64,000 nucleotides of DNA from Crambe crambe (lineage: Eukaryota > Porifera > Demospongiae > Poecilosclerida > Crambeidae). The translations under genes were made by a program, and so were the position numbers. The notes below the pieces were generated by a model. The model saw only the letters and a program-made list of their open reading frames with translations, was not told the DNA's origin and made no database searches. Where the stretch lies: positions 4,278,001 through 4,342,000 of the forward strand of contig OZ004587.1 of NCBI GenBank assembly GCA_963924555.1, in the 5' to 3' direction. Below, in pieces: positions 2,046 through 64,000 of the stretch. The stretch's first letter is position 1. Every line of letters starts with the position of its first letter.

Positions 2046-2151
2046 ATGGACCCTGGCTCATCCCAGCCCCTCAACCTCTCCTTCTCATTGGTGCTTCTCT
2101 CTGCTCTACTGATGTTGAGTGGAGATGTGGAACTCAATCCTGGACCTGAGA
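2046..2151 (+). CDS. Gene A exon 1: hydrophobic leader with 2A-like motif
   Basis: Starts at the ATG in ccaaATGGA and codes for 35 residues. A short polar N-terminus is followed by a hydrophobic stretch (LNLSFSLVLLSALLML, residues 9-24) that resembles a signal peptide, then SGDVELNPGPE. The donor is GTGAGT at 2152, leaving phase 1. Exon 1 of gene B is identical except for Ala20 to Ser. Confidence 0.75.
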
Positions 2152-5100
2152 GTGAGTCCATTGTTAACTGGATGTGTGGGTAGGTCACTTGATCGTAATA
2201 GCTAGCTGGAAATCAGTCATTATGCTAAGTTATCAGAATTATATAGGACAACCTACTTAACTACCTGACAAAAAGTAGATTTAATACAAGTGTATTGCTC
2301 TTATTATGTTCCTGCAGCTGTCTTAGTTGCAAGGGATCTTAAGATGGTGAGGAATTTCATATGGCGAGCCCATATCAAGTGGTACGACATAGGTGTGGAG
2401 TTGGAAATGGATCCTTCCACACTACAAGCAATCAAGGATAATTTCTCCAACAATCCTGCTAATTGCTTTAGTCAAGTACTGCTGGACTGGCTGGAGGGAC
2501 AAGGCTTGGAATCTACATGGTCAAATCTAGCCGCAGCTTTAAAGGCACCGCCTGTTGGTATGTCAGCTATAGCTGAAGCAATTGAAGCAAAATACCTTGG
2601 AGATACACATCAACCAGGTAAGTGTATCTACTAATCTAGTCTTTGCGTATTCCTTCTTATTTAAGCACTAAGTGGTATAATATGACTGAGAGTTACACAC
2701 TAATCGAAACTTCTATTGAGGCTTTCAGTCACTTTTTTGAAATAGCTAAGGCTAAAAGCTATATATTTCCATTATCAGCTGACATTCTAGATTTACTATT
2801 GCTTTTTCTCTTTTATATTCAGCTTAAATTCTAGAGCTATAATTACATTTGGCTAGATTTCTGAGCTTGCCCTAATTACTATAGCTGTAGCAACTCAACA
2901 GATGCTATACAATAATCTAATCTTATCAATGAGATCTCTAAATGAGTCTTGTGAAGAAATGGCTTCTCTGATAATCACACCCATTTCTTCTCCTATATCC
3001 CCAAATGAGTCTTCTGAAGCCACATCCTCCTCTTTTATTCCATCCAATATTGCTCCTTTGCCAGTAACCTTACCCTTTACAACAGCCACACCCACCATCC
3101 CACTCTCCAGTGGCTCCTCCCCAGTCCCAACACGATCTTCTACTGATCCCTCTGGAAGAATGCAACCTTGTGCTGCAGCAACAAGTGATAACTCAAGTAA
3201 GCCCGAGTTCCTACACCAACAATTTCAATTCCCCTAACAGTTTTAATGACCCATTGGCCATTACCAGTTACAAAATGCAGCCTTGTGTTCTGGATATGAT
3301 CTTCAACCCTTAGCTTTTTACCATGTACCACCAGCAATTTAGACCAAATATAATACCATAATATGGCCGAAAATGTAGGCAGAGAATTAATTTGGCGGTT
3401 GAAGACTTAAAAAGTAATCTTTTTACATTGGTATTGTAAAGGTCGTCAACATTACAAATTCAGCACAGCTAGCTAGCTAGACATGACGATGCTAACTTTT
3501 GGTCCCCTAACACAACTTTCAACAGAGAATTCAAAAGCCATCGATCAATTGAGAGCGCTTGTATGCTTGATATAGCATGCATACACACATAAGCAAGAGC
3601 TGGCACATTCCGCCAATATTAAATCTACCAAGTTTGAATGAGAGCAATCTGCCAAATTTTATTTCTGCCTATATTTTTGGCCATATGGTATGCCACCAAC
3701 AATTTAGATGATCCTTTACCAATGTTGTGTCCTGACGTTATGCAGGTTCTTGCTATGAGATGATAGAACAAAAAATCAAAAATTTAGACGATAAATTCAC
3801 TGAACTTGCTGATAAAACATTTGATGAAATTAAAGTAGATAATCCTGATGTTAAGCGATTCAGAGCAAGACTTATTTCTCTGAGGTTTAAGTACCAAGAA
3901 CAGCACAAAGATTTTGTCCAGCAGCTCAGAGAAGATATAGAGAAAGACACGACCATAGATCATATATGGACGAAGCTAAGTAGTTACTGGAATTTCCTCA
4001 ACTACTCACTCCTTGAGAATCTGGTTCACAAATATGGGAGTCACACTCTCAAAGCTGATATGAGAAATTATTTGGAGCAATTAAAAGAATTTCGAACTAA
4101 CACTCGTTTGTGCGAATTTGCCAAATACTGTGATAAAATCAGTAGAAAGTTGCCTGAAAAAGATTTACAAGAATTTGTTGTTAAGCTGAAGAAATCCTGG
4201 GATGAATGCACACTTGAAGACTTAGAAGAATTGAAAGAGAACATTACTCAACAGTTCTTTCTTCCTTCATTTGTGATGAGTATACGAAGCATTGAACCAG
4301 GATCCATCATAGTCACATGGACAATCCCAACACTTATCGCATCAGCTCTCAGGAAGAACATCAAAAACATTGACATTTGTGAATTCTCTAATGAAAATGG
4401 AATTGAATGTATCCTTATTGATGGCAAAGAATTCTCTGAAGAAACCAAATCTATGATGACTACACCAATCACCACATCTATCAGTGGCTCCTCCCCTGTC
4501 CCATCAAAACGATCCTCTGGTGATCCGTCTGGAAGAAGTCAACCTTGTGGCAAAGATGCCAATGGTGAGCTTTATCAGAGAGTGCGTTAGGTAGGGTCAT
4601 AAGACTGTATGAACTCAAAACTCTTTTCTCTTGGTTATCTGACTCAAAAAACTACAGTGTCATAGAAGAGAGAAAAGTACAGCGAGTAAGAGAAAGAAAG
4701 CAATTCATAAAATTTACATTTCATCTAGATTGTTCATTGCAGCGAGTGAGCTGACTCTCAGGTCATGACTCATGAAATTATATCAGAGAGTGCGCTAGCA
4801 CTCTCTAAGTGGGGATGGCGGGTCAAAGGTCATAAAACTGTATAAACTAAAAACTCTTCTTTCTCTTCTACCCTTACTCTACAGGTTCTCAGAAGGCTAC
4901 AGTGAATTATTACATCTACAAAGAAGAGAGGAGAATGTTCAAAAACCAAAAATTCATTCGCTAACATAAGAAAAAAAACAATGTCAAAAATTGACTTTTG
5001 TTCTTTTTCTTTATCGAGAGTGTGTTAGCACTGTCTAAGTAGGGATGGCTGGTCAAAGGTCATAAGACTGTATAAACTAAAACTCTTCTTTCTCTTCTAC

Positions 5101-7597: not shown

Positions 7598-10500
7598 TTA
7601 TTATTATTCTTCTTAGACAACCATATCTCTCGAACCACTCACGCTACAGCTATGATTTCTGGACAAATCCACTCCAAATTCTACGAACTACGATCTTTTC
7701 TACTCGTTGATCCTCGAAAGAGTCGATGAAAAAGGAGACACTAAGGAGCACAGCACTCGACTAATTCAATTAGGAAGCCATCTTTTCTATAATACGCATG
7801 CGCATGTATTTGATATCCAATTATTCGAAATTATAATATTATTCAGCTGCCTCTAGCTAGCTAGCTAGGTATAGGTATATGTAGCTAGAATAGTGATGAT
7901 GATGATAGACTACTGTATCGACTCGGGGATTTAGATTCAACAAGGTAGACTCTATTTCAGCATCTTCTACCTCCACCTTGACTCGTTGATAGTGATTGGG
8001 CTGGTATGCTATTGGAGAACTATTCTTCTTTCATCTGTCCCTGCATACACATAGAAGAATGAACTCTATACATAGCTAAAACCATAAAAGAGAGGAAAAA
8101 AAGACCAGGAACAAGTAAGGGAAAAAGCATTTCGTGAAATGAAAAAAGATGTAGGGATGACCACTGCACAAAAAAGTAAGGAAACAAGAAGGATGAAATC
8201 TTTGTTCTGTATATCCAGCCAACAATCCCTACATGTACGTACATTACTACACTATAATCTGAAGCTACCCGACGTATATGTAGGGATTGTTGGCTGGATA
8301 TACAGAACAAAGATTTCATCCTTCTTGTTTCCTTACTTTTTTGTGCAGTGGTCATCCCTACATCTTTTTTCATTTCACGAAATGCTTTTTCCCTTATTAT
8401 TATTCTTCTTAGACAACCATATCTCTCGAACCACTCAAGCTACAGCTATGATTACTGGACAAATCCACTCCAAATTCTACGAACTACGATCTTTTCTACT
8501 CATTGATCCTCGAAAGAGTCGATGAAAAAGGAGACACTAAGGAGCACAGCACTCGACTAATTCAATTAGGAAGCCATCTTTTCTATAATACGCATGCGCA
8601 TGTATTTGATATCCAATTATTCGAAATTATAATATTACTCAGCTGCCTCTAGCTAGCTAGCTAGCTAGGTCCTAGGTATAGGTATATGTAGCTAGAATAA
8701 TGATGATGATGATAGACTACTGTATCGACTCGGGGATTTAGATTCAACAAGGTAGACTCTATTTCAGCATCTTCTACTTCCACCTTGACTCAATAATGAT
8801 TGGGCTGGTATGCTATTGGAGAACTATTCTTCTTTCATCTGTCCCTGCATTATTACACATAGAAGAATGAACTCTATACATAGCTAAAACCATAAAAGAG
8901 AGGAAAAAAGACCAGGAACAAGTAAGGGAAAAAGCATTCGTGAAATGAAAAAAGATGTAGGGATGACCACTGCTCAAAAAAGTAAGGAAACAAGAAGGAT
9001 GGAATCTTTGTTCTGTATATCCAGCCAACAATCCCTACATATACGTACATTACTACACTATAATCTGAAGCTACCCGACGTATATGTAGGGATTGTTGGC
9101 TGGATATACAGAACAAAGATTCCATCCTTCTTGTTTCCTTACTTTTTTGAGCAGTGGTCATCCCTACATCTTTTTTCATTTCACGAAATGCTTTTTCCCT
9201 TATTAAATTTTACATCTCATGTACATTAAGTAGCTTGTAAACTTTACAAGTGTTTAACAGCTTTTAATATTTTGCACGATTTTCTCAAGTTGCTATGTAC
9301 TACCTATAGCCGGTAATATTGACATAAAAATACCATTGACAGTATTTAATTTGACGGAATCTGAAATCACACAAAATAAATAATGCATGTGCATCGTGCA
9401 TGCGAGCTGTGTACAGCTAGTTAGCCATATAGCTATTATCAGTTTAGTATGAGTTCTCCAGTTGTGTTAGTCTACGAAAGTGTATAGACTTCAATTCTTG
9501 GGAGAAACTAACACTGATAGCGATCCTTATGCTACAATCGTTGGACACATCCCTCGAAGAATTTCAGCCGCTTGTTCTCTCTTTATAGTGATGGATGGCT
9601 CATCAATTCGTTACGCTATCACAGGTTCAAGGCGCTACTCCTCCAGAGCCTATATTTTCTTTGACTCTCCAGCGGTGGTGTGCAATAAATGGAACGCAAT
9701 GTATCGCAAACTTAATTAAACCGCGTGACTTTTTGACGGTTTTATTTTTGGCGATTTGATGCTTAAACCGCCAAAGCGTCAAATTAAAATCTTCGTCAAT
9801 ATTTCCGGCTATACGGTATCACAAATGCATGCATCATGCCAATTAATGTGGTATGCATAATTGGAATTCAAAAAGTGAAAAGCACAAAAGGATGGAACCT
9901 CTAAATTAAGTAGGGATGGCCTAATTCTTTCTGGCCTGTATAACTGTACTGCAACCTAGTATGAAAACTTTACAACTGCCTATTAGCTAGGCAGTTGTAA
10001 ATTTTTCATACAAGGCTGCAGTACGCCAGCTAGATTTTAGGCTAACCTAGAAGAAATTTTTGCACTCATACACTTGTATATACAGTCTACTTGAGGTTAA
10101 GATCAAAGTACCGCACTACCGCTCTATGCACACTGCAGACTTGTTGTTTACATAGGCTGAGCCAAAATGGGAGGAGTGCAGAACTACCTTTATAGTTAAT
10201 TTCAGATATTCTTCCCTATCCAGACCCTCTCATTCCTGCCCTTTCTCTGGTGGGACCAATGACTACTCTTGATATAAAAAATGGTGCTGATGACAACATT
10301 GATGCTGACTCAGCACTTGGCACCATCAGTGACGTGACTGGAACAGATGTGAGTAGCTATCCTACAGATGATATGAGCATAGTCACTGCAGGTCTCAGGA
10401 CTGAGGTCTCTGATGAGTTCCAGGTAAGAAGTGAATAAGTGTGTGTAAGATTCTTCTTCATACATACAAATTATTGTAAATATTCCAGTGAAATACATTA

Positions 10501-22500: not shown

Positions 22501-25500
22501 TAATATCCAGGACTCTAATTCAAGTACCTATTCTAATTCAGGACTCCATATTTAATGTACCTAATCTTGTACCTAATCCAACTTACTTGGACTCAAATTA
22601 AATACTTGATTTTAGTTCGACAATTCTATTGCTTTTGTACTCGCTATTATTCGACATAGAACTGAAGAAAAAAATTAATTGATACCTTTCTCTGAAATAA
22701 CAACTCAAAGAATTGGATTTTCTTCCAACTGTGAATTGGCACTCATAATAAGCATGCACCTTTTATACTGATCCCCTTGATGCATAATTCGATGATTGGG
22801 TATGATTTTTTGGTGATTCAGAGCAAACCTTCAGACCCGTCAAATAAAATCCCCAAGTAAAGTACTATAATATGGTATAACATTTACATATCTACCACCT
22901 GAGTATGTGTTCATCACCAAAACTCATTAGTTACCGTAACATTTCCTGATTTCCTGTAAAGCAGAAAACTCTTCCTATTCATGCTGTTCCCTCCCTGGTC
23001 GGTACCAGTGGCGTATCTAGAATTTGAACTAGGAGGGTGCTAGATAATGCGCGCGTGAGCGCGCGCGAAATTTTTCGAACCACACCCACTTTTGATTAAC
23101 CACACCCTCTTTATTATACCCAGATGATGGCCTAAGTATTAGCTACCCTACTTTACCAGCGTACAGGATCAGAAGTGAGAAGACACTGGTGCAGACTGAA
23201 TAAAGAAGCATAGAGATTTTAGATCGAGATGTGCATTATTTAGGGTAAAAATGTGCCGGGCGCATGCGCCTCGCCGATGTCACGCGATGTGATTATTGAA
23301 CTCTGACCCAATGCTGCTCTTTCTGTATTAGTGTAATAACTGCTTGCTAGATGAAAATAATTGGATAGATAACTATACAAGCGAGCCTACTGAAAAAGCT
23401 AGCTAGCAGCTGAGGGGGGTGCTTGAGCACCCTGAGCACCTCGCTAGATACGCCACTGGGTACAGTGATGAAAAAGGACATTATTTCTCCCCACTCAGTA
23501 CTCCTTACAATAATTATGTCTGAAGATAACAATGCACATTTTGTCATTACTGCATGTGATGTACTGTATGTGTTAGTAAATAATAACTTATATATCATGA
23601 TGGCACTATCTAGTTCAATTTCCATTAGTGTGGACCACAGAGCATTAATCACAACATTGCATGACTACTTGTAGACCATGCAGCAAGGACCATACAGGGA
23701 TCTGTTAGACAGTCACAGCTAATAATTCATTTCTAGAGTTCAGTGAATAAAGAGGCAGACAATACTTCAAAAGGTAACTTTTATGGGACTAGTGAAGGAC
23801 AAAGCATGAACATATCACTATTAGAACCAGAGCTCGAAATAATCAGCATCACCTGAAAACTTGAAATACTAGCCTAAATAATCCAAATAGTGTGCATTAA
23901 TTGACCTTTTCCTACATAAAATATGAACAAGTGATGTGCTTGTAGTTACACTGACTATGAGACGCTATAGTTAAAAGCTGACTACTTCCTACTATACAAC
24001 TGAGGGCAAACCAGACGACTTAGCTGTCGATCGAGCAATTGAATGGCTCAAAAGTGCCATAGCTCTCGCCTACATTGGCTTATTTTCAAAATCTCTTGGA
24101 CTCGCACTGCCCACTGGTTCATACGCAAGTACATATGGTCATGCAGCATATTGCTGCTGCTCAAGAAATTTGACAACTGAAAATAGTACTTGCCTCATTA
24201 TTCATGAGCAAACATTATACCAAAGTGACTTCATAGTTACTGTACTCATTATTAGTTGTGATTTTCTAAATTCTAGTTGCTGCATGATCTCTAAGTAGTC
24301 ATACATGTAGCTGTAATTAGCCAGTGATTGTTTACTACACATACAATGGTACATCACATGCTGTAATTACAGTCAACATGTAAACAATGACATTATCATG
24401 TGTGGTGTGTGACATACAGGGCACAATCCATAAACTTCCAATATAGTAGCTCTATGAGAATATTAGTACTAGAGTGAGAGTTTTCTTCCTTCACATCACA
24501 GGACTACATCGGGAGAGACTTGAAGGACCCACGACTAGACATGATAGTCTCAGCAGAAACAACAACCGAATACAGCTCAGAATTACATGATGCAGCCTCA
24601 GCTGGAATTCTAGACTTGGTGAAGCAGCTCATAGCAAAAGGCCACAACCCTATGGTGAAGGATAGAAATAATGATACTGCTCTCCATCGTGCAGCTCACT
24701 ATGGTGAACTAGATGTTATCAAGTTCTTAATCGAAGAAGTGTCGTGTAACCCAGCTCCCTCTGGCTGGCATGGAACAACTCCTCTACACTCTGCAGCCGA
24801 AGCAGGACATCTATCGATCGTGGAATACCTGATAGAAAAGCACCAAGTAGATCCCCTCAGCCAGGATGAGGATGGCCTCTCCCCTCTACATAGAGCCTGT
24901 AGGGGTGGTGATTTAAATGTAGTGAAATTCATGATGAAGACAATGCTCGAGTACATGAAAATAGAAGAAATATTTACCGATTCCTCAAAACATAAAACTA
25001 CCCCCATTCATGAAGCAACCATGAAAGGGCATCTAAACATTGTGAAATATATGATCAGTGAGTGCAAGTGTGATCCTAACATTCGTGATGGTAATTATGG
25101 TAGAGGACCTCTCTTTGTTGCTGCCCAGGAGGGTCACTTGTCCATTGTCAAGTTCTTGACATTGGAGTGTGGTTGTGACCCTGAGAGTACAGACGTGAAA
25201 CAGTCGACCCCACTACATATTGCTGCAGGTAAAGGACACTTGCCAGTAATCGAGTTCCTTTCCCAAGAAATGAAGAGTAATCCCAACTACAGGGACGAGA
25301 GCAACAACACTCCCCTTCATCAAGCAGCCCTTGCTGGTCATTGTGAAGTGGTGGAGTATTTCATCGACACCTTGCATTGCAGTCCAAACACTCCTGGTGG
25401 TTGGCATGGAAGAATGCCACTACATCATGCTGCCCAAGAGGGTCACCTCAACCTAATCAAGAATCTCGTTGAAAAGTACGCCTGTGACCCTAATAGCCTG

Positions 25501-25791
25501 GACAACAATAAAGTCACACCTCTCCACATGGCAGCTAAGAATGGACACTTGTCCATCGTCCATTATCTAACCCAGAACAAAGAATGTAATAACATGTGCC
25601 AAGATATCAATGGAGATACTCCACTCCATTCGGCTGCCATGTTCGGTCAACTCTCAGTAGTCAAACATTTCGTTGAACGTCTCCATTGTTCCCCACACAC
25701 CAAAGACAAGTTTAACCAGACACCATTCCAGTTGGCCCTAGAGAAGGGTCACAGTGAGGTGGTCCATTATCTGTTTTACTTCTATTTTTAG
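2046..25791 (+). CDS. Gene A: 2A-leader / death domain / helical module / ankyrin-repeat protein (six exons)
   Basis: Manual model: 2046-2151, 2318-2617, 2885-3196, 3746-4564, 10206-10423, 24502-25791. All junctions are GT-AG, phases are 1,1,1,1,0, and the total is 3045 nt (1014 aa plus stop). Order of parts: hydrophobic leader ending in DVELNPGP (1-34), death domain (about 38-130), Ser/Thr/Pro linker (136-239), mainly helical module (about 240-490), acidic linker (513-585), about 12 ankyrin repeats (about 605-1010). Death domains recruit signalling partners by homotypic contacts and ankyrin arrays bind protein ligands, so an innate-immunity sensor or adaptor is plausible. No NACHT or kinase domain is seen. 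The same order and phases recur in gene B, which is the main support for joining exons across a 14-kb transposon-filled intron. Alternative: the ankyrin exon belongs to a separate transcript. Confidence 0.65.
2124..2147 (+). other. 2A-like ribosome-skipping motif DVELNPGP (gene A)
   Basis: The peptide exactly fits the 2A consensus D-(V/I)-E-x-N-P-G-P. In known 2A peptides the ribosome fails to form the Gly-Pro bond and continues from Pro, giving two products. Here skipping would leave a 33-residue leader and a main protein starting with Pro34. Without skipping, the hydrophobic leader would stay attached as a signal peptide. The activity is inferred; the motif itself is seen. Confidence 0.8.
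2318..2617 (+). CDS. Gene A exon 2: death domain
   Basis: Phase 1-1 exon of 300 nt (acceptor cctgcag, donor gtaagt). The translation reads ARDLKMVRNFIW..., then W..IGVELEMD, L..I...F, C...LLDWLEG, and STWSNLAAALKA..VGM...AEAI. This is the six-helix death-domain pattern, with the typical W-x-x-IG-x-EL near helix 2, the Trp in helix 5 and the closing L-x-x-AL-x-x-x-VG. It differs from the gene B exon at about seven residues of 100. Confidence 0.85.
2885..3196 (+). CDS. Gene A exon 3: Ser/Thr/Pro-rich linker
   Basis: Phase 1-1 exon of 312 nt between the acceptor actatag and the donor gtaagc. It codes for 104 residues of low complexity, rich in Ser, Thr and Pro. Its end (SSGSSPVPTRSS.DPSGRMQPC) is repeated almost exactly at the end of exon 4 (SGSSPVPSKRSSGDPSGR.QPC), so a short segment was duplicated within the gene. 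Gene B has no equivalent and instead has three exons of 20-22 codons here. Likely a flexible tether. Confidence 0.6.
3354..3690. mobile_element. MITE with about 28-bp terminal inverted repeats (337 bp)
   Basis: The left end taccataatatggccgaaaa is matched in reverse complement by the right end (taccatatggccaaaaatat), and the similarity continues inward. No open frame lies inside. It sits in the intron between exons 3 and 4 of gene A. Similar sequences ccacca(g/a)caatttaga flank it on both sides. Confidence 0.75.
3746..4564 (+). CDS. Gene A exon 4: large helical module
   Basis: Phase 1-1 exon of 819 nt from the acceptor ttatgcag to the donor gtgagc; translation starts SSCYEMIEQKIKNLDDKF. The first half is strongly helical and charged, with a landmark I..IWTKLSSYWNFLNYSLLE.LVHKYG. 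The second half has beta-like segments (MSIRSIEPGSIIVTW). The same landmarks appear, much diverged, in gene B exon 6, and I recall this module from many sponge and cnidarian death-domain proteins. Its biochemical role is unknown. It ends in the duplicated Ser/Pro linker. Confidence 0.75.
4783..5470. repeat. Three tandem copies of a ~229-bp repeat
   Basis: Units start at 4783, 5014 and 5241, each with a hairpin (gagagtg-ygytagca-ctctct type) followed by aag(t)gggatgg. Units are nearly identical. A fourth single copy starts at 53,087 in the other large intron. The head-to-tail array with a terminal hairpin resembles arrays left by rolling-circle elements. Confidence 0.8.
5471..6240. repeat. Dispersed repeat shared with 53,323-53,960
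   Basis: Begins ataagatcgacgtaccgact and matches the right part of the copy at 53 kb, including a GC-rich stretch (gggggcgg...gggcgtggc). In this copy the GC-rich stretch is followed by a TATA-like atatataa at about 5693. There is no coding potential beyond chance. The two copies sit in non-equivalent introns, so this is a mobile repeat rather than ancestral intron sequence. Confidence 0.65.
6241..6838. other. Intronic stretch with partial dispersed repeat
   Basis: The segment at 6236-6545 resembles parts of the repeat found at 52,053 and 55,019 (tctacactccaaaatgcccc near 6239, then a diverged form). The rest has no recognised feature. Confidence 0.4.
6839..7613. repeat. Three head-to-tail units with Helitron-like hairpin end
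   Basis: Units begin at 6839, 7079 and 7328 with TCAGAGA(G/T)TGCGGTAGC, a self-complementary hairpin (AGAGAGTGC/GCACTCTCT), then atgtagggatgactcggacg. Each unit ends in a cttcttcttctcta tract directly joined to the next TC. The third runs into an ATT microsatellite (about 7567-7614). The same hairpin end, reversed, bounds the large Helitron-class element near 52,048, so these are probably its non-autonomous relatives. Confidence 0.7.
7328..8395. mobile_element. Non-autonomous composite repeat ending in a fold-back
   Basis: From the hairpin end at 7328 through the ATT tract, about 500 bp of unique-looking sequence (tagacaaccatatctctcga...) and a large palindrome to 8395. A second copy without the first 240 bp follows directly (8399-9201). 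A third complete copy is at 18,470-20,470, so the whole ~1.07 kb behaves as one unit. Open frames on both strands here are by-products of the palindrome. Confidence 0.6.
8117..8395. repeat. Fold-back palindrome, copy 1
   Basis: Arms of about 122 bp (from aagggaaaaagcatttcgtg) with a ~30-bp spacer; the arms are almost perfectly complementary. It contains gtagggatg near each end. Related copies are at 8925-9201, 20,170-20,470 and 41,942-42,737, with half copies near 15,254 and 62,650. Confidence 0.9.
8925..9201. repeat. Fold-back palindrome, copy 2
   Basis: Same design as copy 1. Base differences from copy 1 occur in both arms in complementary fashion (for example gctcaaaa/ttttgagc here against gcacaaaa/ttttgtgc in copy 1). 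It closes the second composite copy that begins at about 8399. Confidence 0.9.
9301..9817. mobile_element. TIR element (MITE), ~517 bp
   Basis: The left end tacctatagccggtaatattgac... pairs with the right end ...gtcaatatttccggctatacggta, and the inner parts (ttaatttgacgg / gcgtcaaattaaa) also match. The open frame at 9480-9719 inside has no recognised homology. Ends of the type TA-c-n-TA recall Tc1/mariner-type MITEs. Confidence 0.7.
9944..10028. repeat. Short fold-back
   Basis: Arms around ttacaactgcc-tattagcta-ggcagttgtaa, extending outward through tatgaaaa/ttttcata and ctgtactgca/tgcagtacg. Just upstream is aagtagggatgg, the motif common to most repeats of this window. Confidence 0.75.
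10206..10423 (+). CDS. Gene A exon 5: acidic linker ending SDEFQ
   Basis: Acceptor atttcag, donor gtaaga; 218 nt moving phase 1 to phase 0. Translation starts DILPYPDPLIPALSLVGP and contains DADSALGTISDVTG and TEVSDEFQ. The phase and the terminal SDEFQ match exon 8 of gene B. The sequence itself is closer to the gene C exon at 60,390. Joined to exon 6 it reads SDEFQ-DYIGRDLKDP. Confidence 0.65.
11230..12350 (-). pseudogene. Decayed hAT transposase relic 1
   Basis: Read on the minus strand in broken frames, pieces match the transposase at 39.4-41.5 kb: an ...LRNTEEAMQ...VWYLPRYGLAL segment corresponds to the RRMFLKILSNVRFLSRQGL region. The RKLLSNIHDS..VDETTD region and the GQCYDG region follow. 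A foreign ~205-bp segment splits it. No intact frame remains. Confidence 0.55.
12770..13330 (-). pseudogene. Decayed hAT transposase relic 2 (partial)
   Basis: Shares with relics 1 and 3 the gctacaccacctttag / ccattgtgctgcagcc and gagagtcatggatgtcactaagaagcttcctcag blocks, which on the minus strand correspond to the GQCYDG and LRKLLSDIHDS parts of the transposase. At 13,153 it runs into a truncated cagtggtgtatctagaatttgag end of the MITE family described at 23,006. Confidence 0.5.
13560..14530 (-). pseudogene. Decayed hAT transposase relic 3
   Basis: The open minus-strand segment 13,599-13,784 reads IQGQCYDGCSTMASGVAAKI...RHALKLSTNDTLKGA. This aligns with CRGQCYDGASNMRGAEGGVAKL...GHALNLAVGDTIK of the 40-kb transposase. 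Further blocks follow toward 14,160 in other frames, then a minisatellite. A sister relic is at 61.4 kb. Confidence 0.65.
14640..15210. repeat. Minisatellite built on CTCAAATTTGAG
   Basis: About 16-18 degenerate units of roughly 30-35 bp, each with the palindrome ctcaaatttgag followed by taccta-atct-aattcagga-like spacer. The same array occurs at 17,630, 22,255, 37,445 and 62,095, usually beside a hAT relic and a half fold-back (here 15,254-15,370). It is therefore part of a larger dispersed element. Confidence 0.8.
15371..17625. other. Intron sequence without recognised gene
   Basis: Contains a ~120-bp block at 16,030-16,150 repeated at 23,650-23,780, and a block at 16,650-16,870 repeated in direct orientation at 33,323-33,580. 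A block at about 17,160-17,450 is present in inverted orientation at about 33,590-33,880. No coding signal. Confidence 0.5.
17630..18030. repeat. CTCAAATTTGAG minisatellite, copy 2
   Basis: Same unit type as at 14,640. It is orthologous to 37,445-37,860 in gene B by flanking sequence (ggacaaagcatgaacatatc... downstream here, a matching tail there). Confidence 0.75.
18724..19673. mobile_element. 950-bp TIR element inserted in an ATT microsatellite
   Basis: The left end agggtaaaacggggtaattc and the right end, in reverse complement agggtaaagcggggtaattc, match over about 26 bp. Flanks on both sides are ATT repeats, so the target duplication cannot be read. The uninterrupted arrangement exists at 7.56-7.62 kb. 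No transposase frame inside; superfamily not assigned. Confidence 0.85.
20170..20470. repeat. Fold-back palindrome, copy 3
   Basis: Arms of ~135 bp. Compared with copies 1 and 2 it has an extra block in both arms (gaaatgggatcaatc on the left, gattgatcccatttc on the right), a paired insertion. Confidence 0.9.
20905..21544. mobile_element. TIR element carrying a RecQ-like helicase fragment
   Basis: The left end gttcccaggtccattaaaat... and the right end in reverse complement gttcgcaggcctattatggg... pair, as do the inner tagggcctg-rtatacac tracts. The interior holds a minus-strand open segment with helicase similarity. The superfamily is not certain. Confidence 0.65.
20968..21261 (-). pseudogene. 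RecQ-like helicase fragment
   Basis: The 97-residue minus-strand frame includes VLVASPFITLTVDQVETLRK and KRGMKSVVITS, which resembles the motif Ia region of RecQ-type helicases (ASPLxxLMxDQVxxLxxRGI). Later comes RWRDALDKPAVSER, which resembles the stretch before the DEAH box in the RecQ-like genes common in sponges and cnidarians. Walker A and DEAH are absent, so it is a non-functional scrap. Confidence 0.5.
21874..22220. mobile_element. 347-bp MITE
   Basis: Perfect terminal inverted repeats tacataggcgtaggaag / cttcctacgcctatgta. The interior has internal repeats of gcatgagggc / gggccatggcccccatg. It lies inside the hAT-relic/minisatellite assemblage of the gene A intron. Confidence 0.85.
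22255..22610. repeat. CTCAAATTTGAG minisatellite, copy 3
   Basis: Degenerate units as at 14,640, shorter and more diverged. Confidence 0.7.
23006..23458. mobile_element. 453-bp hAT-type MITE with GGTAC duplication
   Basis: Ends cagtggcgtatctagaattt and, in reverse complement, cagtggcgtatctagcgagg. Both ends are flanked by GGTAC (23,001-23,005 and 23,459-23,463). CAGTGGCGTA-type ends are common in hAT elements, although a 5-bp duplication is shorter than the usual 8. A truncated relative is at 13,153. Confidence 0.85.
23464..24501. other. End of gene A intron; unassigned open stretch
   Basis: Contains the block repeated from 16,030 and the site corresponding to both B-specific insertions: tatgagacgctatag at about 23,955 and tgtactcattattagttgtg at 24,241-24,260. 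A stretch at about 23,971-24,299 is open on the + strand (reads GKPDDLAVDRAIEWLKSAIA...) but has no start codon and no match I know. Confidence 0.4.
24502..25791 (+). CDS. Gene A exon 6: ankyrin-repeat array
   Basis: Acceptor ttcacatcacag, phase 0, reads DYIGRDLKDPRLDMIVSAE and then about 12 ankyrin repeats of 33-36 residues with TPLHxAAxxGHLxxV motifs and many xCDPN loops. Repeat 4 to 5 has an insert (KTMLEYMKIEEIFTDSSK). About 89% identical to the gene B exon. The C-terminus differs: about 43 bp present in B (including B's stop) are missing here, so the frame runs on to add FYFYF before TAG. Function: protein-protein recognition. Confidence 0.9.
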   Translation, partial: DYIGRDLKDPRLDMIVSAETTTEYSSELHDAASAGILDLVKQLIAKGHNPMVKDRNNDTALHRAAHYGELDVIKFLIEEVSCNPAPSGWHGTTPLHSAAEAGHLSIVEYLIEKHQVDPLSQDEDGLSPLHRACRGGDLNVVKFMMKTMLEYMKIEEIFTDSSKHKTTPIHEATMKGHLNIVKYMISECKCDPNIRDGNYGRGPLFVAAQEGHLSIVKFLTLECGCDPESTDVKQSTPLHIAAGKGHLPVIEFLSQEMKSNPNYRDESNNTPLHQAALAGHCEVVEYFIDTLHCSPNTPGGWHGRMPLHHAAQEGHLNLIKNLVEKYACDPNSLDNNKVTPLHMAAKNGHLSIVHYLTQNKECNNMCQDINGDTPLHSAAMFGQLSVVKHFVERLHCSPHTKDKFNQTPFQLALEKGHSEVVHYLFYFYF

Positions 25792-29082: not shown

Positions 29083-29188
29083 ATGGACCCTGGCTCGTCC
29101 CAGCCCCTCAACCTCTCCTTCTCATTGGTGCTTCTCTCTTCTCTACTGATGTTGAGTGGAGATGTGGAACTCAATCCTGGACCTGAGA
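29083..29188 (+). CDS. Gene B exon 1: hydrophobic leader with 2A-like motif
   Basis: Same length (106 nt), start context and GTGAGT donor as gene A exon 1. One amino-acid difference (Ser20). Confidence 0.75.
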
Positions 29189-32100
29189 GTGAGTCCATTG
29201 TTAACTGGATGTGTGGGTAGGTCACTTGATCGTAGTAGCTAGCTTCAAGTGCTGGAAATCAGCTGTTCTCAGAGTTATATAGGACAACCTACCTGTCAAA
29301 AAAGTGGATTTACTGGGTAATAAAAAGTAATACTAGCTACAGATGCAAATAAAGTCAGGGAACTAATCTATAGTTGACTATAGTGAACTTTTATAATGTC
29401 AACTAAAGCTTGTGATTCCATATTCATGATGCCAAATGAAGCTATGTAAGTTGGTATGAGGGATGATTGCTCTTATTATGTTTCTGCAGCAGTCTTAGTT
29501 GCAAGGGATCTTAAGATGGTGAGGAATTTCATATGGGGAGCCCATACCAAGTGGTACCACATAGGTGTGGAGTTGGAAATGGATCCTTCCACACTACAAG
29601 CAATCAAGGAGAATTTCTCCAACAATCCTGCTAATTGCTTTAGTCAAGTACTGCTGGACTGGCTGGAGGGACAAGGCTTGGAATCTACATGGTCAAATCT
29701 AGCTGCAGCTTTAAAGGCACCACCTGTTGGAATGTCAACTCTAGCTGAAGCAATTGAAGCAAAATATCTTGGAAATACACACCAGCCAGGTATATTGTAG
29801 TCACACTTTAATCAAAAACAGTCATATACTCATATAAATGTATGGCTATACGTAGGTAATGATTAGGTGATGAATTTTAAGTAAATATTAGGCTGGTTTC
29901 CTTTGAGCTTGCCTTGAGATAAATAATAATTCCAGCAAGTACTATAATTCAATCTTATCACTCTTGACTAGGTGCCAAAGTTTTGCTACCGGATAATATA
30001 CCTACTTCTGAATCATGTACAAGTTCAGAAGGTAAATAAAGTTATAGTGCATTTCAGTGATTTTAAGAATAACAATTTCTGCTACAATAAGAGACTGTTC
30101 TTATAAACCATGCTCACTAATTCATTGCAGTTGGCTATAGTAACCACTAACTTAACTTGCATGTGCATTGTCAATTAAACTAAGTGGATCACTTGTTAAG
30201 CTTATCAAAATGTTAATAAGGATATCATTCCTCCAAGTACATACACAAGTTCCTCCCAGCAAAAACAATGAGCAAACCCTAGCTGGATATTCTGACGAGT
30301 AGATGCCCCATCTTTTGCAATTGAAACAGCATAGCTATCTGTCAATGCATGGTGTTGGTTGGTTCCCAAGGCCTCCTCCATTAGCTGCTGCCCAGATAAT
30401 TAGCTATGTTGATAGACGTGATGCCATGAACGCAAGAAGAAGTTATTTCAAATCATTAATATCTCTTCTATGGTGGTACCATGTGCATATCTGGTGTGCG
30501 TTTCATTGGCAGCTGATACAGCTAGAAAATTAATTTTAATATTAATAAAAAATATCTGGATTTTATATTACTGCACTTGTCTGGTTTTGGCATGGCTTAT
30601 AAGAATAAATCTCTTATCATCACACTTGTCTGTGGCAAGGATATTTCACAGGCCTCCTGCTCATGAAATATCTCCCCATATCTCGCTTACTCGTGTAAGT
30701 CGTGATAAAAGTAGCACTATCACATAAAAATCATAGTAGTTTTTCCACTGTATAATGAGTCAGAATACTATACTTACGTAAAAACATTTATCTTGTAGAT
30801 TCATTAAAACCTCAATATTCTGAACCTGTCATTGCCTCTACTACATGCTCTGGATCTGGTACGTATGTTAACATAATTGCCAATAAAGTTACAACAATCA
30901 TTCCCTCTTGAATTGGAATAGATCCATTGACGTGTCCTCCACTTGGATCTGATGCTGTTTCTACGATTAGCTCATGCTTTAGCTCAGGTATGAAAAATAT
31001 CAAGGTATAGCCTGCTACATAGCTGTGTTCTCATGTTCTGTTTTATTACTACTATAATACTCTAGGCCATCTTTACATGAAAGAAATAGCACTCTCTCTG
31101 ATGCACTATATCTGGTGTGCATGACTATCTTAATAATCTAGCTCCTCATTCCACTAAATTTTTTAATATGATTTCAGAAAAAAGTGCTGTGCCTCTAACT
31201 CCATCTTTCCCCTTTCTCTTGACTGATAACATGTCAGAAACCGAAATAGAAAATTGGAAGCAAAAATTATCTAACGAAACTGAAAAGATAAAATCTAAGT
31301 TTACTCACATCATGTATTGCCTGCAAAAGTCCATAGAAAAGTCAGGAAAGTTCAATGATCTCATCACTTTCTTGAGCCTTCACGAGAAAACATTTGAAGA
31401 AGTTTTAATCAGCTGTGTGACCACATCAGAGGCATTTATCAGAATACGTAGATATTGTTCATTCTACGATTACAGCATCATGAAGCTTTTGACTGATAAA
31501 TTTGGTACTGATGAAGACAAGAAGAGATTCAAGAAATACTTGCATATGTTTCAAGAATATTCAAAGAGGAGAGTTTGTGAATGCCCTACCAGTACATTCG
31601 GAGCCGCAGAGAAAGAAGAGAAGGTCCTCGTGCTAAAAACTGAGAATAAAAAAATAGATGAAGTAACTGTAGAAGAAATGAAAGCATTGCAGTTCCAGAT
31701 GAATCAGATATTGGGACGAAAAGATTTGCGTTTACTTTATGTTGATGAAGGTTGCATTGAGCTGACTTTCAGGGTTACTGATGATGTATTGGATATTGCT
31801 AGAGAGAGGCAACAGGAACTGAGGAGTCTTGGATTCACTAGCATCAGTTATGGAGGTCATAGTCTTGATCTCGATGTTGAGAAGACTGGGACTCCAAGTA
31901 TGTGAATTATAACTATTATGATAGGAAAAAGTGCTGATAATTATATTTTCACTATGCAGCAGCCAACACTGATGCTACTAAAAGAAAAGGTATAGCTATT
32001 CTTTGTCACGAATCAAAATGCTACTGATTGGTGAGAGTGTCATACTTTGATATCTGAATGCATAATTTTAGGAATGGGAGGGGGGAAGGAGTGGCCCAAC

Positions 32101-35100
32101 CAAGAAAGCATTCCAAATACAAAAGGAGCCAATGATTTATTCTTGCCACATGGAGCTCCCATCCCTATAGAATGCAGCTTATCAAGTGCATGACTTACAT
32201 GCTTTACATTTTCCTGCAGTTGCATCAAATCTAGACACAACTTTGCCTCTTTCTAAGCGCCCTCACACTGAAATCACATCTCCTTTTAGTCCTGAAATGC
32301 TGGCTCCTCCCACTCTACTGTCCCACTCAGGAAGGATCACTCTGCCCACAGGAAGAAATGAACATGAAAGCGATGTCGATTCAGCACTTGGCACATTGAG
32401 TATGATAACTGGAGCAGCCACTTATTCTGCAGATAATGCAAGCATTGCCACGACAAGGTTTATGACTGAGGCCTCAGATGAGTTTCAGGTGGGTAATAAT
32501 AATTTCATAGCAATCACATCAGAATAGAAGGAGACCACCCCCTTTTCTTTTCCATAGCATTTGTACCAGTATAATGCTTGGGTATACAAGTGCAACAAGT
32601 TATACATACTCTCTGAATGGCCATAATATTTTCTGCAAACCATTAGTAGAAATCACACAATTCAATTGTAGAAAAAGCTTGAGTTAAAATATTTACATAT
32701 CACTGTGTGTTTACTGCACACCATTTTTTATCCCAATACACACACTGTGTGTGTATTGAGTGTGCAATACTCACTCATTGTTACAGTGTATGTCAGCAAT
32801 CAAGCAAAGCAAGCGAGCCTCATGCAGGGACAGCCTCCACTCTTGAGTTGCAGCCATTTTCTTAGACTCCATTTACATGTGTTTAGCTACTACCGTACAC
32901 TTTTCTTATACTAAGTGGTCGATAATAAGTGCTGCAACGGTCGATAATAGGTGCTGGTCGATAATCGACGACTTACACTACACAGAAAAATGAGCAGCTA
33001 ATAGTTAGCTATGTCAAACTGATATTTTTCTTGACTTACATCTCTTAATTACTCTCAGAGAGCACTTCAGTACAATTCTTCAGTTCGATACACAAAATTG
33101 GCATTTACTTATGAAAATGGTAGAATTACCCAACAATGAGTCCTAAGTAAATTTTCTTTCATGCTCTACGCAGGAGGGGGCACATCTCCCTCTCGCACCC
33201 TTCCCCTCGCTGTAGCCTACGGCCACATATAGATCCACTTTTCTTCTGCCCCCTCTTTTTTCTACACCCCAAGTTTGCGCCCCGCCCCCCTACCAAATTT
33301 CTGCATACAGCTCAACAGAAATTTTGAGAGGCATAATACACGTTTTAATCTGGTAGTTTATGCTGTCATCAATAATAATTACGTATGCCAATAATTATCT
33401 TTATGTGCTTGTACATCAGTTCAAAAGTCAATTGATAATGCATATGCATTTTACTCACTTCATGACAACAAAGCTAAGGTAAGGAAGAGTGGCTCGATAC
33501 ACCAAAGTACTCAAATTTTTAGCTATGGGCTCAACTCAACAATAAATCTCGACACTCCAAGGGTCCGACAACAAGCAAGGTACCAGAATAGGTTTAGCTA
33601 GAAGAAATCAGCCCAATTACACAAAATTATGATTGTCAGATTACCTGCAGCATGTTGAAGAATATTAGCTAATAACATGTGCTCTGATCACTATAATTGA
33701 CAGCAATGTGTCCTGTCCTACAGATTTCATAGATGGAAAGTTGGAAATTCTTAGCCTCCTTCAATGGGCATCTAACATGACCTCACATGCAATAATTGCT
33801 TATGGCAGTACTGTGTAGCCTAGTTTGCTGAACAGAGACACATCATCATTAGGGAAGTCTGCATGCAACCCTTTCCTCCACTTCATCCACATAATTAATC
33901 ATTAATAGTACACTATACCTAAGTTACGTACGGACAATAATTGTATGACCACGTTTTAATATCAAAGTGTTCCTCGTGTCCAGCTCTTTAACACCAGACT
34001 TATGATTAATTTGAAAACAATCTTTTAATCTTTCACATTTCAATCTTTCGGATCAGAAACTCCTATTAATCATATCATTTGTGCTTAAGTACTAGTAGCA
34101 ATGTGTAAAGACTGCCTTCTTTTGTCTGTTGAATTTTAACTGCTACACCACCTTTAACTCTATAGCCATCATAGCATTGGCCTTGTATTTTATAATTTAC
34201 TATTTCAAAATGCAAATAGATGCTATATACAATGCTATATCAGCACTAGTGGAAAGTATGTTGTACATCCCAAGAAACTCTTCACCAGATTGAAAATTCT
34301 TATCTACCTACCTTATCACAAAAGTAATTAAGTTGCTCTTTATTGGATACATCAGTGATTTCAACAACCATGAATGTTAGAAACTTAAGGAGAGTCATGG
34401 ATGTCACTAAGAGGCTTCCTCAGACTAAAACTTCTTTTTGGTTCTCATGTGAAGTGAATTTCCTCCAGCTTTGTTCTAACCACTTAACAATAAAGAGATG
34501 GGTGGTCTTCAGCCAAGTCATTATGGCCTCGTAAAGCAAGACCCTGTCTTGCTAAATACCACACACTGATATCAGAATATCTCTGCATAGCTTCTGTTGT
34601 GAGCAGAACTTCACAACTTCTAATATGTTCCAAACGATTTTATCCTAATATAGCGGGTATATTTCAAGGGGCGAAAGTTTCGCGCTTAGACCTTTTTGTC
34701 TTATTTCGCTGGGAAATGCATGCACACAGAGCTATGAACTAGCTACGATGGCATGCAAGTCTAGGCCATCTTTCGTTTGAGACTACGTTCTGGTTAAGTT
34801 TAAAATGATATCTGGAGTGCCGTAGCTAGCGAAGCGTTATATTGTGCAGCGATCCTTTTGCCGTGGCATAGCGATGATAGATGTTCTGCCACCTCGAAGC
34901 CATCAGACCATCTGATCATGTGGCTCTATTTTTCTTCAGCGAGGTGAGTCTATCTGTTGTAGAGTCACAGACACATGAACTAGAGTGATTAGTCTGAGAG
35001 ACTGGATTTCCCAAAGTGATTCGGTGGTTAAATATTCGTGGATGAAAAAAAAAATCGCGAAATCCGCGAAACTTTTTCCCCTCGAAATATACCCGCTATA

Positions 35101-53100: not shown

Positions 53101-56100
53101 AGCACTCTCTAAGTAGGGATGGCAGGTCAAAGTCCATAGGACAGTATAAACTAAAAACTCTTCTTTCTCTTCTACCCTTACTCTACAGGTTCTCAGAAGG
53201 CTACAGTGAATTATTATATCTACAAAGAAGAGAGGAGAATGTTCAAAAGCCAAAAATTCATTCGCCAACATAAGAAAAAAACGAGTTCTAAAATTGACTT
53301 TTCGTTCTTTTTCTTTATAATAATAATAATAAGATCGACGTACCGACTTACTGGCTATAGTCATCAAAATTCTGCTTTGGCCATCTGTTAGAGCGGCACC
53401 TAGAGGCTGATCTTTTGCTATTAGTTTTGACTAAGGCTCTACTTCACTATTCGATAGCACTCGGAACACAGCTGCTACGCCATTTTGAAGGGGGCGGGGC
53501 TTATGGGCGGAGCCACGTAAGCTTAAGTTTAGCTATAGCCAAGGTCTTCATTCATTATCTGATGATGTTCCAGTCACTCCTTGCTGAATTACAGTACAGA
53601 TGCTCATCCTATAGTAGCATTATAGCCAGTACTTTGCTGTAGTGTAGTCAGCTCACTTCACCATGCCGTGTACATGTCATTTACATTGCTGTTGCTGTAA
53701 AGTTTTATATCAACAAAACTTAAATAGCTAAACAAATTCTTCAACCAGAGACACTGTATGTACCTACAAAAGAGGTTTATGTAGAGCTGGCTTTGTATAG
53801 TACTGTACTGTAGCCTCCCTCATTCAACTTCAAGCACTAAGAAAAAGGATAAAAACAAGTGAGCGTAAAAAATTTCTTCAAATAAAAAGGTTAAGTAGGG
53901 ATAGCCTAAAATCTAGCTGGGCTATCTATAATGTGCTTCAGCCTCGTATGAAAAAAATCTTCACGATATTACCTCATAAAAGGGGTGGGGCAATTAATAG
54001 CAGTTCTCCTCATATAACACCTGCACAGGATGTGGCCATTTGATGGCATCCACTATTATGATCACTACACCAAATGCATAAACTCCCCATACTCCTCCCT
54101 CAAGCAAGACATACGTACCATCTCAATAATTATTTCAGTGATCACATATGTAACAATTAGCTAATGCTGTTCACTTTTTAAAATGTTCACTCCTTTCAGT
54201 ACTCCATTACACTGCAGATGATCATCCTTCAAACTCTCCTCCCTGAACAGAATGAAATACTGATCATTAAATAAATTTAGTTCAATCAAGGGAGCCTTTA
54301 GTGTCTATCAATTTTCATAATCACAAAGAAAAAGAATGCAAACAAGTGAATGCAAAAAATTTCTTCGAAATAAAAATGTGAAGTAGGGATGCTATTATAA
54401 CTGGAGCTTCATAATGAAAACCAAGTACTGCAGCATCGAAGCAGTATGGCCCAAAAATCTAGCTGGAATATGTATTATAACTGCATGCAAGAGAGTGAAC
54501 TTAGTGAAGTGACCCTTACCCATCATCAAGTACAAGATATAATTCCTACTTCACTCCCATGATCAAGGGCCAAGGGAGTGAAGTAGGAATAGTATCTCGT
54601 ACTTGATGATGGGTAAGTGTCACTTCACTAAGTTCACTCTCTTGCATGCAGTTATAATACATATTCCAGCTAGATTTTTGGGCCATACTGCTTCGATGCT
54701 GCAGTACTTGGTTTTCATTATGAAGCTCCAGTTATAATAGCATCCCTACTTCACATTTTTATTTCGAAGAAATTTTTTGCATTCACTTGTATATATATTA
54801 TCATGGCTATACATGTAAAATAAATCATTATGCAAAGATTGCCCAGGGGGACGTAATATGACTACGCGATATGACTACGCGATATGGTAAAATATCACCC
54901 TAGTTGTGATACTACTATTCTCTATGGGACATGCTCAGTAACTACATAATTGCAGCGAGCGAGCGAAGCGAGTGAGCTGACTCTCAGGTCATGACTCATT
55001 GAAATTTTAAATATATATATCTATGTCTACACTCCAAAATGCCCCAGGCGTACGTACGTACGTACGTACGTGTCGTGCAATAGTAGCGCCCCTGCGCGTG
55101 CATTTATGCGCATGCTCCAGTTGTAATTGCTTGATTGATTTCTACATCGCTTTGTATATAGCATGGTGGATAGTAGGGCTAGGCTTATCTAAGTAGATTG
55201 TAGGCACTACACATATCTAAATGCTTTGTGGTAAGTACTTAGCTTTCTATGCATGCAGCTGCCTGCCACTTAGCTACATAACACGACAGCAAAGCACAAA
55301 TGAACTATCAGCTCAACATTTCTACAGCCTTTTGGGCAGCAGGCACAAGAGGCTTATCTAAGCGGCTTGTAGGCACTAGGCTTATCTAAGTGCTTTGAGG
55401 TAAGTATGTATGCAGCTGCCTGCCACCACTTACATGACTCTTAGCAATATCAAGCACTGAAGCCTATCAGCTACTTTAATTGCTCACTGTCAAATGCTGC
55501 ACATTGCTACAGATACTCAACAGCAAATGAAAATCGTTGAAGAATACTTGCTTGCTCGCTCGCTGTCAACTGAATGTTGAGCATTGCCCTAGTATAAATG
55601 CACAAGCAAAACACTCGCCGATAAAGGGGCGTGGTTACGTAAAAGTGGGCGTGGCTTCCAAAAAATTTTTCAAGCACTTACGCACGGTACATTTTTTTTA
55701 TAGCTGCCTGACCAATCATAAAAAGCTTCCTCCAGGCCTGTATTAGTTCTGATTTTATAAATTATAGTTGCCGCATCATCTCTAAGTAGTCATGCATGTA
55801 GCTGTAATTAGCCAGTCATTCTTTACTACACGTGCAATGGTACATCACATGCTGTAATTACAGTCGACATGTAAACAATCACATTATCATGTGTGGTGTG
55901 TCATATACAGGGCACAATCCATAAACTTCAAACTTAGTAGCTCTATCACAATATTAGTACTATATTGAAGAGTTTTCTTCCTTCACATCACAGGACTATA
56001 TCGGGAGAGACTTGAAGGACCCACGACTAGACATGATAGTCTCAGCAGAAACAACAACCGAATACAGCTCACAATTACACGAGGCAGCCGAAGCTGGAAA

Positions 56101-58917: not shown

Positions 58918-59409
58918 TTACTTGTATAAAAATCATCAAGTTTCCTGTAATAAGCTAGCAACTGCGCTATGTTTGAATGTTGTTGCCATACCTTGGTGAT
59001 GTTGGACAAGATATACTTCAGGTCTCCAGGCAAAGGTAAAGGTGATTTAGCGACTATAGCTAAGGTAGCTAATTATCGAGGTGACACATGTTGCGGAAAG
59101 GACGCCATGGTAAATCACCTGAGGGGCATAATGTGTCATAAGAATTTTTCCTAATGATCCAAAGGCAGCCACTAGCAAAAAGAAGACTTGTGCTGGACTG
59201 GTAGCTTGTACACTTACAAGCCTTTGTGGCTTGTGACTTGTAGCTTGCATGTCGTTTGTAGCTTGTAGCTGTAGCTTGTACACCTACAAACCTTTCATGT
59301 TTTGCACAATAAGACCCCTTTTCTCTCATATGTAATAGTTACGTATGCAAGCTTGGCATTTCATGTCACAGTCCTAAATTGTGCCGAGTACATTAAAAAT
59401 TATGTCAAT

Positions 59410-59484
59410 AGCTATGACCCGTTGGGTCACACACCTCTGCATTTTGCAGCTAAATTACATTGTGGACACCTTTCCATGGTCTAA
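59410..59484 (+). pseudogene. Solitary ankyrin-repeat relic
   Basis: Reads SYDPLGHTPLHFAAKLHCGHLSMV and then stops. It is a single ankyrin repeat, probably the remains of a further member of the A/B/C family. Confidence 0.6.
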
Positions 59485-60034: not shown

Positions 60035-60586
60035 ATGAACTCAAATAAAAGAAATGACATCAAAGAAAATGGTGCTACTGCAATAGGTAACAAGAACTGG
60101 AAGTGACTGGATAATGCAGTATTTCTCTTTGACAAGCAAGTATTTTATGATGGAGCTCTGATGAAGATTATATATATCTTTCAGATATAACTTGGAGATG
60201 CTTTACAATAGAAGGCATCACTGAAGAGAAACAACAAGCATTAAGAAATATGGGAATCATCAGCATTAGTTATGGAGAGTTTCTTTTTGATCTGACCTCC
60301 CTTGCTAAGAGTGTAGGATGTGACGCTCCACTTGGAATCGAGGAAGGTGAGAAGAACTATCAAGTTATTAACACTTTCAAATTTCACAGATGTCCTTCCC
60401 TATCCAGACCCTCTCATTCCTACCCTCTCTCTGGTGGGACCAATGACTGCTCTTGATACAAAAGCCGATGCTGATGACAACATTGATGTTGACTCAACAC
60501 TTGGCACAATCAGTGACGTGACTGGAACAGATGTGGGTAGCTATCCTACAGATGATATGAGGACTGAGGTCTCTGATGAGTTACAG
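60035..60586 (+). pseudogene. Gene C: truncated third family member
   Basis: Possible exons 60,035-60,086 (ATG, ends phase 1), 60,185-60,346 (phase 1-1) and 60,390-60,586 (phase 1 to 0), with introns of 98 and 43 bp. Exon 2 matches only the end of the helical module (KQQALRNMGIISISYGEFLF). Exon 3 (PYPDPLIPTLSLVGPM...TEVSDELQ) is close to gene A exon 5. No leader, death domain or ankyrin array is found in range; read-through after exon 3 stops at about 60,638. Either a decayed copy or a small derived protein. Confidence 0.45.
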
Positions 60587-63902: not shown

Positions 63903-64000
63903 GTGAGCAAATTAAGAAGTAATTTCAGTAGATATTCTTAAAAGTAGAATTTAATATTTCAGCAGGAAACATATTTTCAAATATTTGAAGTAATTCTATG

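Follow-up and report, generated by a model that had tools for sequence, protein, structure and literature searches.

Positive selection on the concave face of ankyrin repeats is known from fungi. In the Podospora NOD-like receptor (NLR) Pa_3_8560, five positively selected ankyrin positions are described, and the selected and polymorphic sites are placed on the concave face, at the inner helices and the hairpin loop, with one exception (Dyrka et al. 2014, PMC4986451). We analyzed a window of 64,000 nucleotides from the sponge Crambe crambe (contig C10, positions 4278001-4342000), which holds two predicted paralogous genes, A and B, each ending in an exon of 12 ankyrin repeats. In these exons and their relatives, organized in three tandem arrays, diversifying selection is concentrated on repeat positions 3, 5, 10, 13, and 14, while the rest of the repeat is under purifying selection. 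The family thus resembles the fungal ankyrin NLRs in having positive selection at five ankyrin positions, mostly on the concave face (PMC4986451); they are its closest precedent, which lowers the novelty of the finding. The fungal repeats are described in the same source as internally near-identical and variable in number between isolates. Unlike them, the repeats of A differ among themselves (their identity over positions 1-24 averages 0.39 and peaks at 0.58), the exons are of one length, the diversity lies between tandem paralogues, and the host is an animal. No NACHT domain was found in the exons scanned, nor did any of the at least 103 NACHT places listed fall in the arrays.

The predicted architecture has precedents as well. 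Kaur et al. 2021 (eLife, PMC8195603) describe Amphimedon proteins with a Death-like domain, TRADD-N, and a fast-evolving C-terminus, often of ankyrin repeats; they report an expansion to 357 TRADD-N proteins (NCOA6-clade) and propose that the ankyrins recognise invaders. The domain order resembles the one predicted for the genes described here, in which the TRADD-N match is sub-threshold. The main text of that paper does not contain the words "positive selection", "2A-like", "NPGP", or "hypervariable", and no site-resolved selection or 2A leader is reported in it under those words. The large family of sea urchin NLRs (Traffic 2016, PMC4981915) is described as having an N-terminal 2A-like leader with the motif D(V/I)ExNPGP and an N-terminal Death domain, both shared with our genes; the leaders acted as a recoding element and as a signal sequence in mammalian and plant cells. 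The sea urchin proteins, however, have NACHT and leucine-rich repeats, whereas here ankyrin repeats are found and the leader activity is predicted only. Exposure to microbial molecules is reported to have raised ankyrin-repeat and Death-domain genes, possibly members of the present family, in two further sponges (PMC6208332). The combination found here was not described in the titles and abstract openings of related open-access literature. The architecture and groove-directed ankyrin selection are each known; their combination in an animal multigene family appears to be new.

Exons A and B consist of stacked 33-residue helix-turn-helix repeats with the TPLH motif, numbered so that TPLH occupies positions 6-9 and the following residue position 10. 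They are identical at 374 of 423 aligned residues (88.4%), close to the value of about 89% given in the initial annotation of the window. That annotation had drawn attention to position 10, which indeed differs in 10 of the 12 repeats with the residue pairs it listed, being the same only in repeats 5 (E/E) and 12 (L/L). As it had also claimed, several of these changes are multi-base: six of the ten differing codons need two or three bases. Position 13, expected to differ in about six repeats, does so in six (1, 2, 4, 5, 7, and 10). Beyond these observations, positions 3, 5, and 14 were found to be part of the pattern, and A and B proved to be two of the 16 full-length copies listed in their array.

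The genome (143 Mb, 119 contigs) was searched with exon A, and at least 115 matching places were found (98 of 1552 candidates scored); exon A had no match among phage records. Array 1 (C10:4.10-4.51 Mb), which holds A and B, comprised 16 full-length copies among the matches listed, all on the plus strand and 85-100% identical to A, with 2 partial copies alongside. From array 2 (C10:0.21-0.94 Mb) and array 3 (C9:0.30-0.57 Mb) 18 copies each were taken, 62-65% and 59-61% identical to A, respectively. The resulting 52 exons (16 + 18 + 18) were all open, with a length of 421-439 codons. They come from 58 stretches fetched, of which six were omitted: the partial exons L019 and L020; L037 and L046 at C10:1.17-1.18 Mb, outside array 2; and L057 and L066 at C9:3.53-3.55 Mb, outside array 3, L057 having an internal stop. 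The alignment leaves aside more distant or longer-frame matches to exon A, among them some that lie within arrays 2 and 3.

Variability was confined to a few positions of the repeat, and this recurred in all three arrays. Mean entropy at positions 3, 5, 10, 13, and 14 (hereafter groove positions) ranged over 0.91-1.40, 0.74-1.51, and 0.90-1.27 bits in arrays 1, 2, and 3, respectively; intermediate values (0.37-0.61) were found at position 2, and all remaining positions were at or below 0.48. Two copies differed on average at 43-46% of groove residues vs. 6.5-7.1% of other ankyrin residues, and the strings of groove residues were all distinct among the copies analyzed (16/16, 18/18, and 18/18). 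Presumed outer-helix positions 18, 21, 25, and 26 were rich in Glu and Lys and had an entropy of 0.16-0.37; aromatic residues and His accounted for 523 of 3113 residues at groove positions vs. 121 of 2466 at these outer positions. When positions were permuted within repeats, the observed nonsynonymous rate of the groove class was reached in 0 of 10000 permutations in each array. These permutation tests are partly post hoc, because the set of five positions was itself derived from the entropy profile of those 52 exons; position 10, named beforehand from A and B alone, was replicated in arrays 2 and 3. In array 1, groove difference was uncorrelated with chromosomal distance (Spearman -0.06, p 0.50).

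A confident model of the ankyrin exon of A was predicted, with a mean pLDDT (predicted local distance difference test score) of 85.6, and DARPin (designed ankyrin repeat protein) chains were among the nearest solved relatives. Positions 10 and 13 are in the inner helix of the model in 12 of 12 repeats, as the initial annotation had placed them; position 3 is outside a helix in 10 of 12 repeats and position 5 in 11 of 12. Groove and outer face were assigned from secondary structure and the published groove rather than from coordinates, and positions 18, 21, 25, and 26 were taken to point outwards because they lie on the outer helix. According to the model, the variable positions lie on the inner helix and the preceding loop, i.e., in the classical ankyrin groove. 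In ankyrin-R/B/G, finger loops and inner helices are described as forming the target groove, which is highly conserved from worm to human (PMC4358367), whereas in the exons analyzed here the groove is the most variable part.

The ratio of nonsynonymous to synonymous rates (dN/dS) of the groove class, calculated from tree-free counts over all pairs, was 2.20 (bootstrap 1.47-3.69), 1.53 (1.02-2.39), and 1.85 (1.22-3.02) in arrays 1-3, compared with 0.23, 0.33, and 0.47 at other ankyrin positions, position 2 being left out. Taken alone, position 10 gave 2.46, 2.10, and 6.08; position 3, 2.30, 1.54, and 1.73; position 14, 1.37, 1.71, and 2.49; position 5, 3.22, 1.06, and 2.06; and position 13, 2.82, 1.17, and 0.72. 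With codon pairs limited to those differing by a single base, the values were 2.34, 1.41, and 1.82 at groove positions vs. 0.19, 0.32, and 0.40 elsewhere.

A codon model (a custom FUBAR-like grid on IQ-TREE codon trees, with either one tree or a separate tree per exon quarter) gave a similar picture. With one tree, global omega was 0.72, 0.86, and 1.36 in arrays 1-3; mean alpha/beta was 1.18/3.44, 1.73/3.99, and 1.75/6.82 at groove sites and 1.13/0.47, 0.98/0.45, and 0.97/0.75 at other ankyrin sites, so that dN/dS (mean beta over mean alpha) was 2.3-3.9 in the groove vs. 0.42-0.77 at other ankyrin positions. With segment trees, a posterior above 0.9 for beta>alpha was obtained at 25/60, 31/60, and 30/60 groove sites and at 6/319, 17/317, and 8/317 other ankyrin sites. 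The uneven spread of variable sites seen between A and B thus held in the larger alignment of 52 exons, and dN/dS at these sites was above the background and, as a class, above 1 in all three arrays. Together with the model of A, these sequence-derived results support the diversification of a recognition surface that the initial annotation had proposed.

Several results weigh against this reading. The bootstrap interval of array 2 begins at 1.02, and dN/dS was low at position 13 in arrays 2 and 3 and at position 5 in array 2. Over the whole exon, the tree-free dN/dS was below 1 (0.53, 0.63, and 0.83). Array 2 also has positions beyond the groove class with values above 1 by counts (position 25, 2.62; position 26, 1.14; both with small synonymous totals), and its position 33 had a posterior above 0.9 at 5 of 11 sites with one tree and 3 of 11 with segment trees. 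With segment trees, 1/60, 7/60, and 1/60 groove sites looked purified, and the tree-based values may be inflated because the trees are star-like and sites are often incompatible.

Relaxed constraint on exposed residues would produce variability with no positive selection, and positions 3, 5, 10, 13, and 14 do vary in many ankyrin families. The outer-helix positions, however, have low entropy, and the dN/dS of the groove class exceeds 1 in all three arrays, also with single-base pairs. We rejected relaxed constraint for the latter reason and consider it very improbable.

The pattern might also stem from gene conversion, from multi-base mutation, or from a local hotspot of mutation. About half of the informative site pairs were incompatible, with incompatibility rising with distance, and many groove codons differ at two or three bases. 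A recombination test on all sites was significant in each array (0/1000 permutations), while the same test on synonymous sites alone was mixed, being significant in one of three (p 0.087, 0.694, and 0.0075 in arrays 1-3); judging from these site patterns, exchange or gene conversion between copies is likely, short of proof. Conversion, however, spreads variants and does not pick positions, and the excess stays in place with segment trees. Multi-base mutation is not the cause, since single-base pairs alone show the same excess. A hotspot was rejected for array 1, where synonymous differences at groove codons were hardly raised (0.135 vs. 0.127); in arrays 2 and 3 they were raised (0.173 vs. 0.095 and 0.150 vs. 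0.070), so the case against a hotspot there rests on the single-base count. We give this group of mutational explanations almost no credence. No fungal-style shuffling of repeats was apparent in the 52 exons, which form one length class, the repeats within A being unlike.

Joining the exons of A and B according to their splice sites and phases gave open frames of 910 residues (A) and 888 residues (B), without internal stops. In both genes the predicted order is a 2A-like leader, a Death domain, a helical/TRADD-N-like exon, a linker, and the ankyrin exon (Table 1). These five-exon models are predictions, and further exons may be missing. The size of the introns and the animal-like layout of the genes point to a eukaryotic host. 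Linker-like open stretches were recognized by eye upstream of ankyrin exons in arrays 2 and 3 (open reading frames of L071-L074).

Table 1. Predicted features of the window (coordinates counted from its first nucleotide)
Feature	Position	Strand	Evidence
Gene A exon 1, hydrophobic leader ending in 2A-like motif GDVELNPGP	2046..2151	+	donor GTGAGT, phase
Gene A exon 2, Death domain	2318..2617	+	PF00531 E 2.2e-4, 21.7 bits, cut-off 22.6; splice sites
Gene A exon 3, helical, related to gene B exon 3	3746..4564	+	splice sites, phase
Gene A exon 4, linker	10206..10423	+	splice sites, phase
Gene A exon 5, 12 ankyrin repeats	24502..25791	+	open frame; Pfam Ank_2 E 7.2e-83; CAG acceptor
Gene B exon 1, 2A-like leader	29083..29188	+	donor GTGAGT, phase; genome match C10:4307083-4307217
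Gene B exon 2, Death domain	29490..29789	+	PF00531 E 1.6e-4, 22.2 bits, cut-off 22.6; splice sites
Gene B exon 3, helical region and TRADD-N-like end	31178..31897	+	PF20694 E 0.035, below cut-off; splice sites
Gene B exon 4, linker	32220..32488	+	splice sites, phase
hAT-type transposase, last intron of gene B	39397-41465	+	C-terminal dimerisation region E 3.2e-7; overlapping frames
Helitron, last intron of gene B	43997-49479	-	Helitron-like N-terminal and PIF1 helicase domains 44755-49479; OTU protease 43997-44743
Gene B exon 5, 12 ankyrin repeats, paralogous to gene A exon 5	55994..57265	+	open frame; 88.4% identity with A; CAG acceptor
Two KH-domain open stretches	62804-63016, 63699-63941	+	E 1e-17, 1.5e-12

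The first exons of A and B carry the D(V/I)ExNPGP motif after a hydrophobic stretch, as in a 2A-like leader. The leader peptide had 45 matches in the genome. Array 1 holds 15 of them, and another 22 lie at C9:0.30-0.58 Mb; of the latter, 20 are 2.1-3.5 kb upstream of a listed ankyrin match and the other two 6.2 and 20.9 kb upstream. None of the 45 matches fell in array 2, and two stretches lying upstream of exons of that array showed no leader in their open frames.

An N-terminal Death-superfamily domain, as in the architecture of Kaur et al. 2021, was found. Array 1 contained 15 matches to the Death exon, 11 with 93-100% identity to that of A and 4 with 52-53%. The 11 exons of A's class (the four divergent ones omitted) had a mean mutual identity of 96.8% and a dN/dS of 0.25. 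The Death exon of A matched exons within the region covered by array 2, with E values of 1e-28 to 1e-37, and an array-2 exon passed the Pfam cut-off (PF00531, E 1.7e-7); an array-3 exon gave E 0.019. In array 3, six Death exons were 77.6% mutually identical and five middle exons 90.8%, both with a dN/dS of 0.59; these are the 6 and 5 of 10 stretches that matched the pattern of the script. The third exons of A and B are related (24% identity over 127 residues, E 2e-8). TRADD-N hits stayed below cut-off at the same exon end in B (PF20694, E 0.035) and array 2 (PF13820, E 0.023). No Pfam family was above cut-off in exon 3 of A, and no TRADD-N match was obtained in the A or array-3 exons scanned, though exon 3 of A is related to that of B. 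A genome search with PF13820 gave no match, though its 14 controls also gave none. The model of exon 3 of B, of low confidence (mean pLDDT 51.1), has a beta-alpha-beta-beta-alpha-beta order at its C-terminal end. The Death-exon classes and the divergence of exon 3 indicate an output end that is constrained by class, not a single fixed module.

No Pfam match to NACHT or NB-ARC was found in the exons scanned, unpredicted intronic exons being possible. A genome-wide list of at least 103 NACHT places, with 103 of 232 candidates scored, has none in the window or the three arrays. Runs of NACHT places among those listed were at C21:1.29-1.64 Mb, C9:7.06-7.53 Mb, and C1:1.43-2.11 Mb, apart from the ankyrin arrays.

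In our view, A and B are probably part of a germline repertoire of recognition receptors whose groove binds foreign or non-self ligands and whose Death/TRADD-N end signals. Each gene would encode a signalling end (the Death domain and the TRADD-N-like exon) and 12 ankyrin repeats, with the concave groove as the recognition surface. Different copies would bind different foreign or non-self ligands there; binding might release or cluster the TRADD-N/Death unit, which could recruit Death-fold partners and trigger a defence or cell-death response. By analogy with sea urchin NLR leaders, the 2A-like leader may send part of the product to the secretory route, the rest staying cytosolic. Three further points count against such a repertoire: the TRADD-N assignment is below Pfam cut-offs; the output end differs between copies (among the 15 Death exons of array 1 four are divergent, six of array 3 are 78% identical with a dN/dS of 0.59, and the third exons of A and B share 24%); and the foreign nature of the selecting partner is something we infer.

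Selection on a binding surface leaves the bound partner unspecified, and two other uses of the groove have to be weighed. Groove divergence might serve to let each copy retain an endogenous partner of its own, no foreign ligand being involved. Avoidance of cross-talk is plausible among tandem duplicates, and array 1 has at least two Death-exon classes; however, for 52 intact copies, each with a distinct groove, just as many private partners would have to exist, and inside the 11-copy class the Death exon shows little variation. We regard this co-evolution of paralogues and partners as unlikely. The repertoire might instead serve allorecognition, separating self tissue from that of other individuals and not recognizing pathogens. 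Sponges are listed as one of the groups of colonial animals that show allo-incompatibility (PMC8195603), and groove diversity fits this use as well as pathogen use, but the predicted receptor would be mostly cytosolic apart from a possible secreted fraction, and we think this use quite improbable.

The repertoire of receptors for foreign or non-self ligands, which we prefer, can be set beside others. Selected recognition-surface repertoires exist both for immunoglobulin folds and for leucine-rich repeats. In fungi, they are also described for WD, TPR, and ankyrin repeats (PMC4986451). If our reading is true, this animal family, with a selected ankyrin groove and a Death-domain output, would add one more independent solution. 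In DARPins, a constant repeat scaffold is combined with a few varied paratope positions (PMC8683736). The exons analyzed here follow the same plan, but DARPins are synthetic. Their randomised positions are 2, 3, 5, 13, 14, and 33; the natural set only overlaps with these, adding position 10 and mostly lacking 33, for which there was some signal in array 2. It is tentatively conceivable, with the balance of judgement nearly even, that the family is a natural analogue of a DARPin library in an early-branching animal: many tens of germline ankyrin receptors with a hypervariable paratope, a Death-domain output, strong selection in at least three arrays, and 2A dual targeting. The groove positions name residues to test, and with a constant scaffold single receptors should be easy to express, so that ligands could be sought directly.

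Further traces of the family were observed. The partial exons L019 (C10:4361425-4362003) and L020 (C10:4371219-4371944), about 9 kb apart, match query residues 1-193 and 178-424 and are perhaps one interrupted array-1 exon or two fragments. Longer-frame relatives (515-657 amino acids) were among the matches listed at C10:0.14-1.25 Mb (e.g., 467511-468605); parts of query residues ~245-425 match them more than once, which corresponds to apparently extra ankyrin repeats. Downstream of B, at window positions 59275-59484 and 60151-60640, there are a weak ankyrin match (PF00023, E 0.0012, below cut-off) and open stretches resembling by eye the TRADD-N-like end and the linker exon; together these are perhaps debris of a further copy.

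The last intron of B is 23.5 kb long and contains the Helitron, which an open frame at 49451-51130 adjoins, and the hAT element. The KH-domain stretches at the end of the window probably belong to a different gene. A DNA pattern for D(V/I)ExNPGP occurred 208 times in the genome vs. 0 for the reversed control. Among the places listed, runs of this 2A motif were found at C1:3.55-3.99 Mb, C5:5.78-6.37 Mb, and C8:0.60-1.09 Mb, which suggests that further tandem gene families share the leader.
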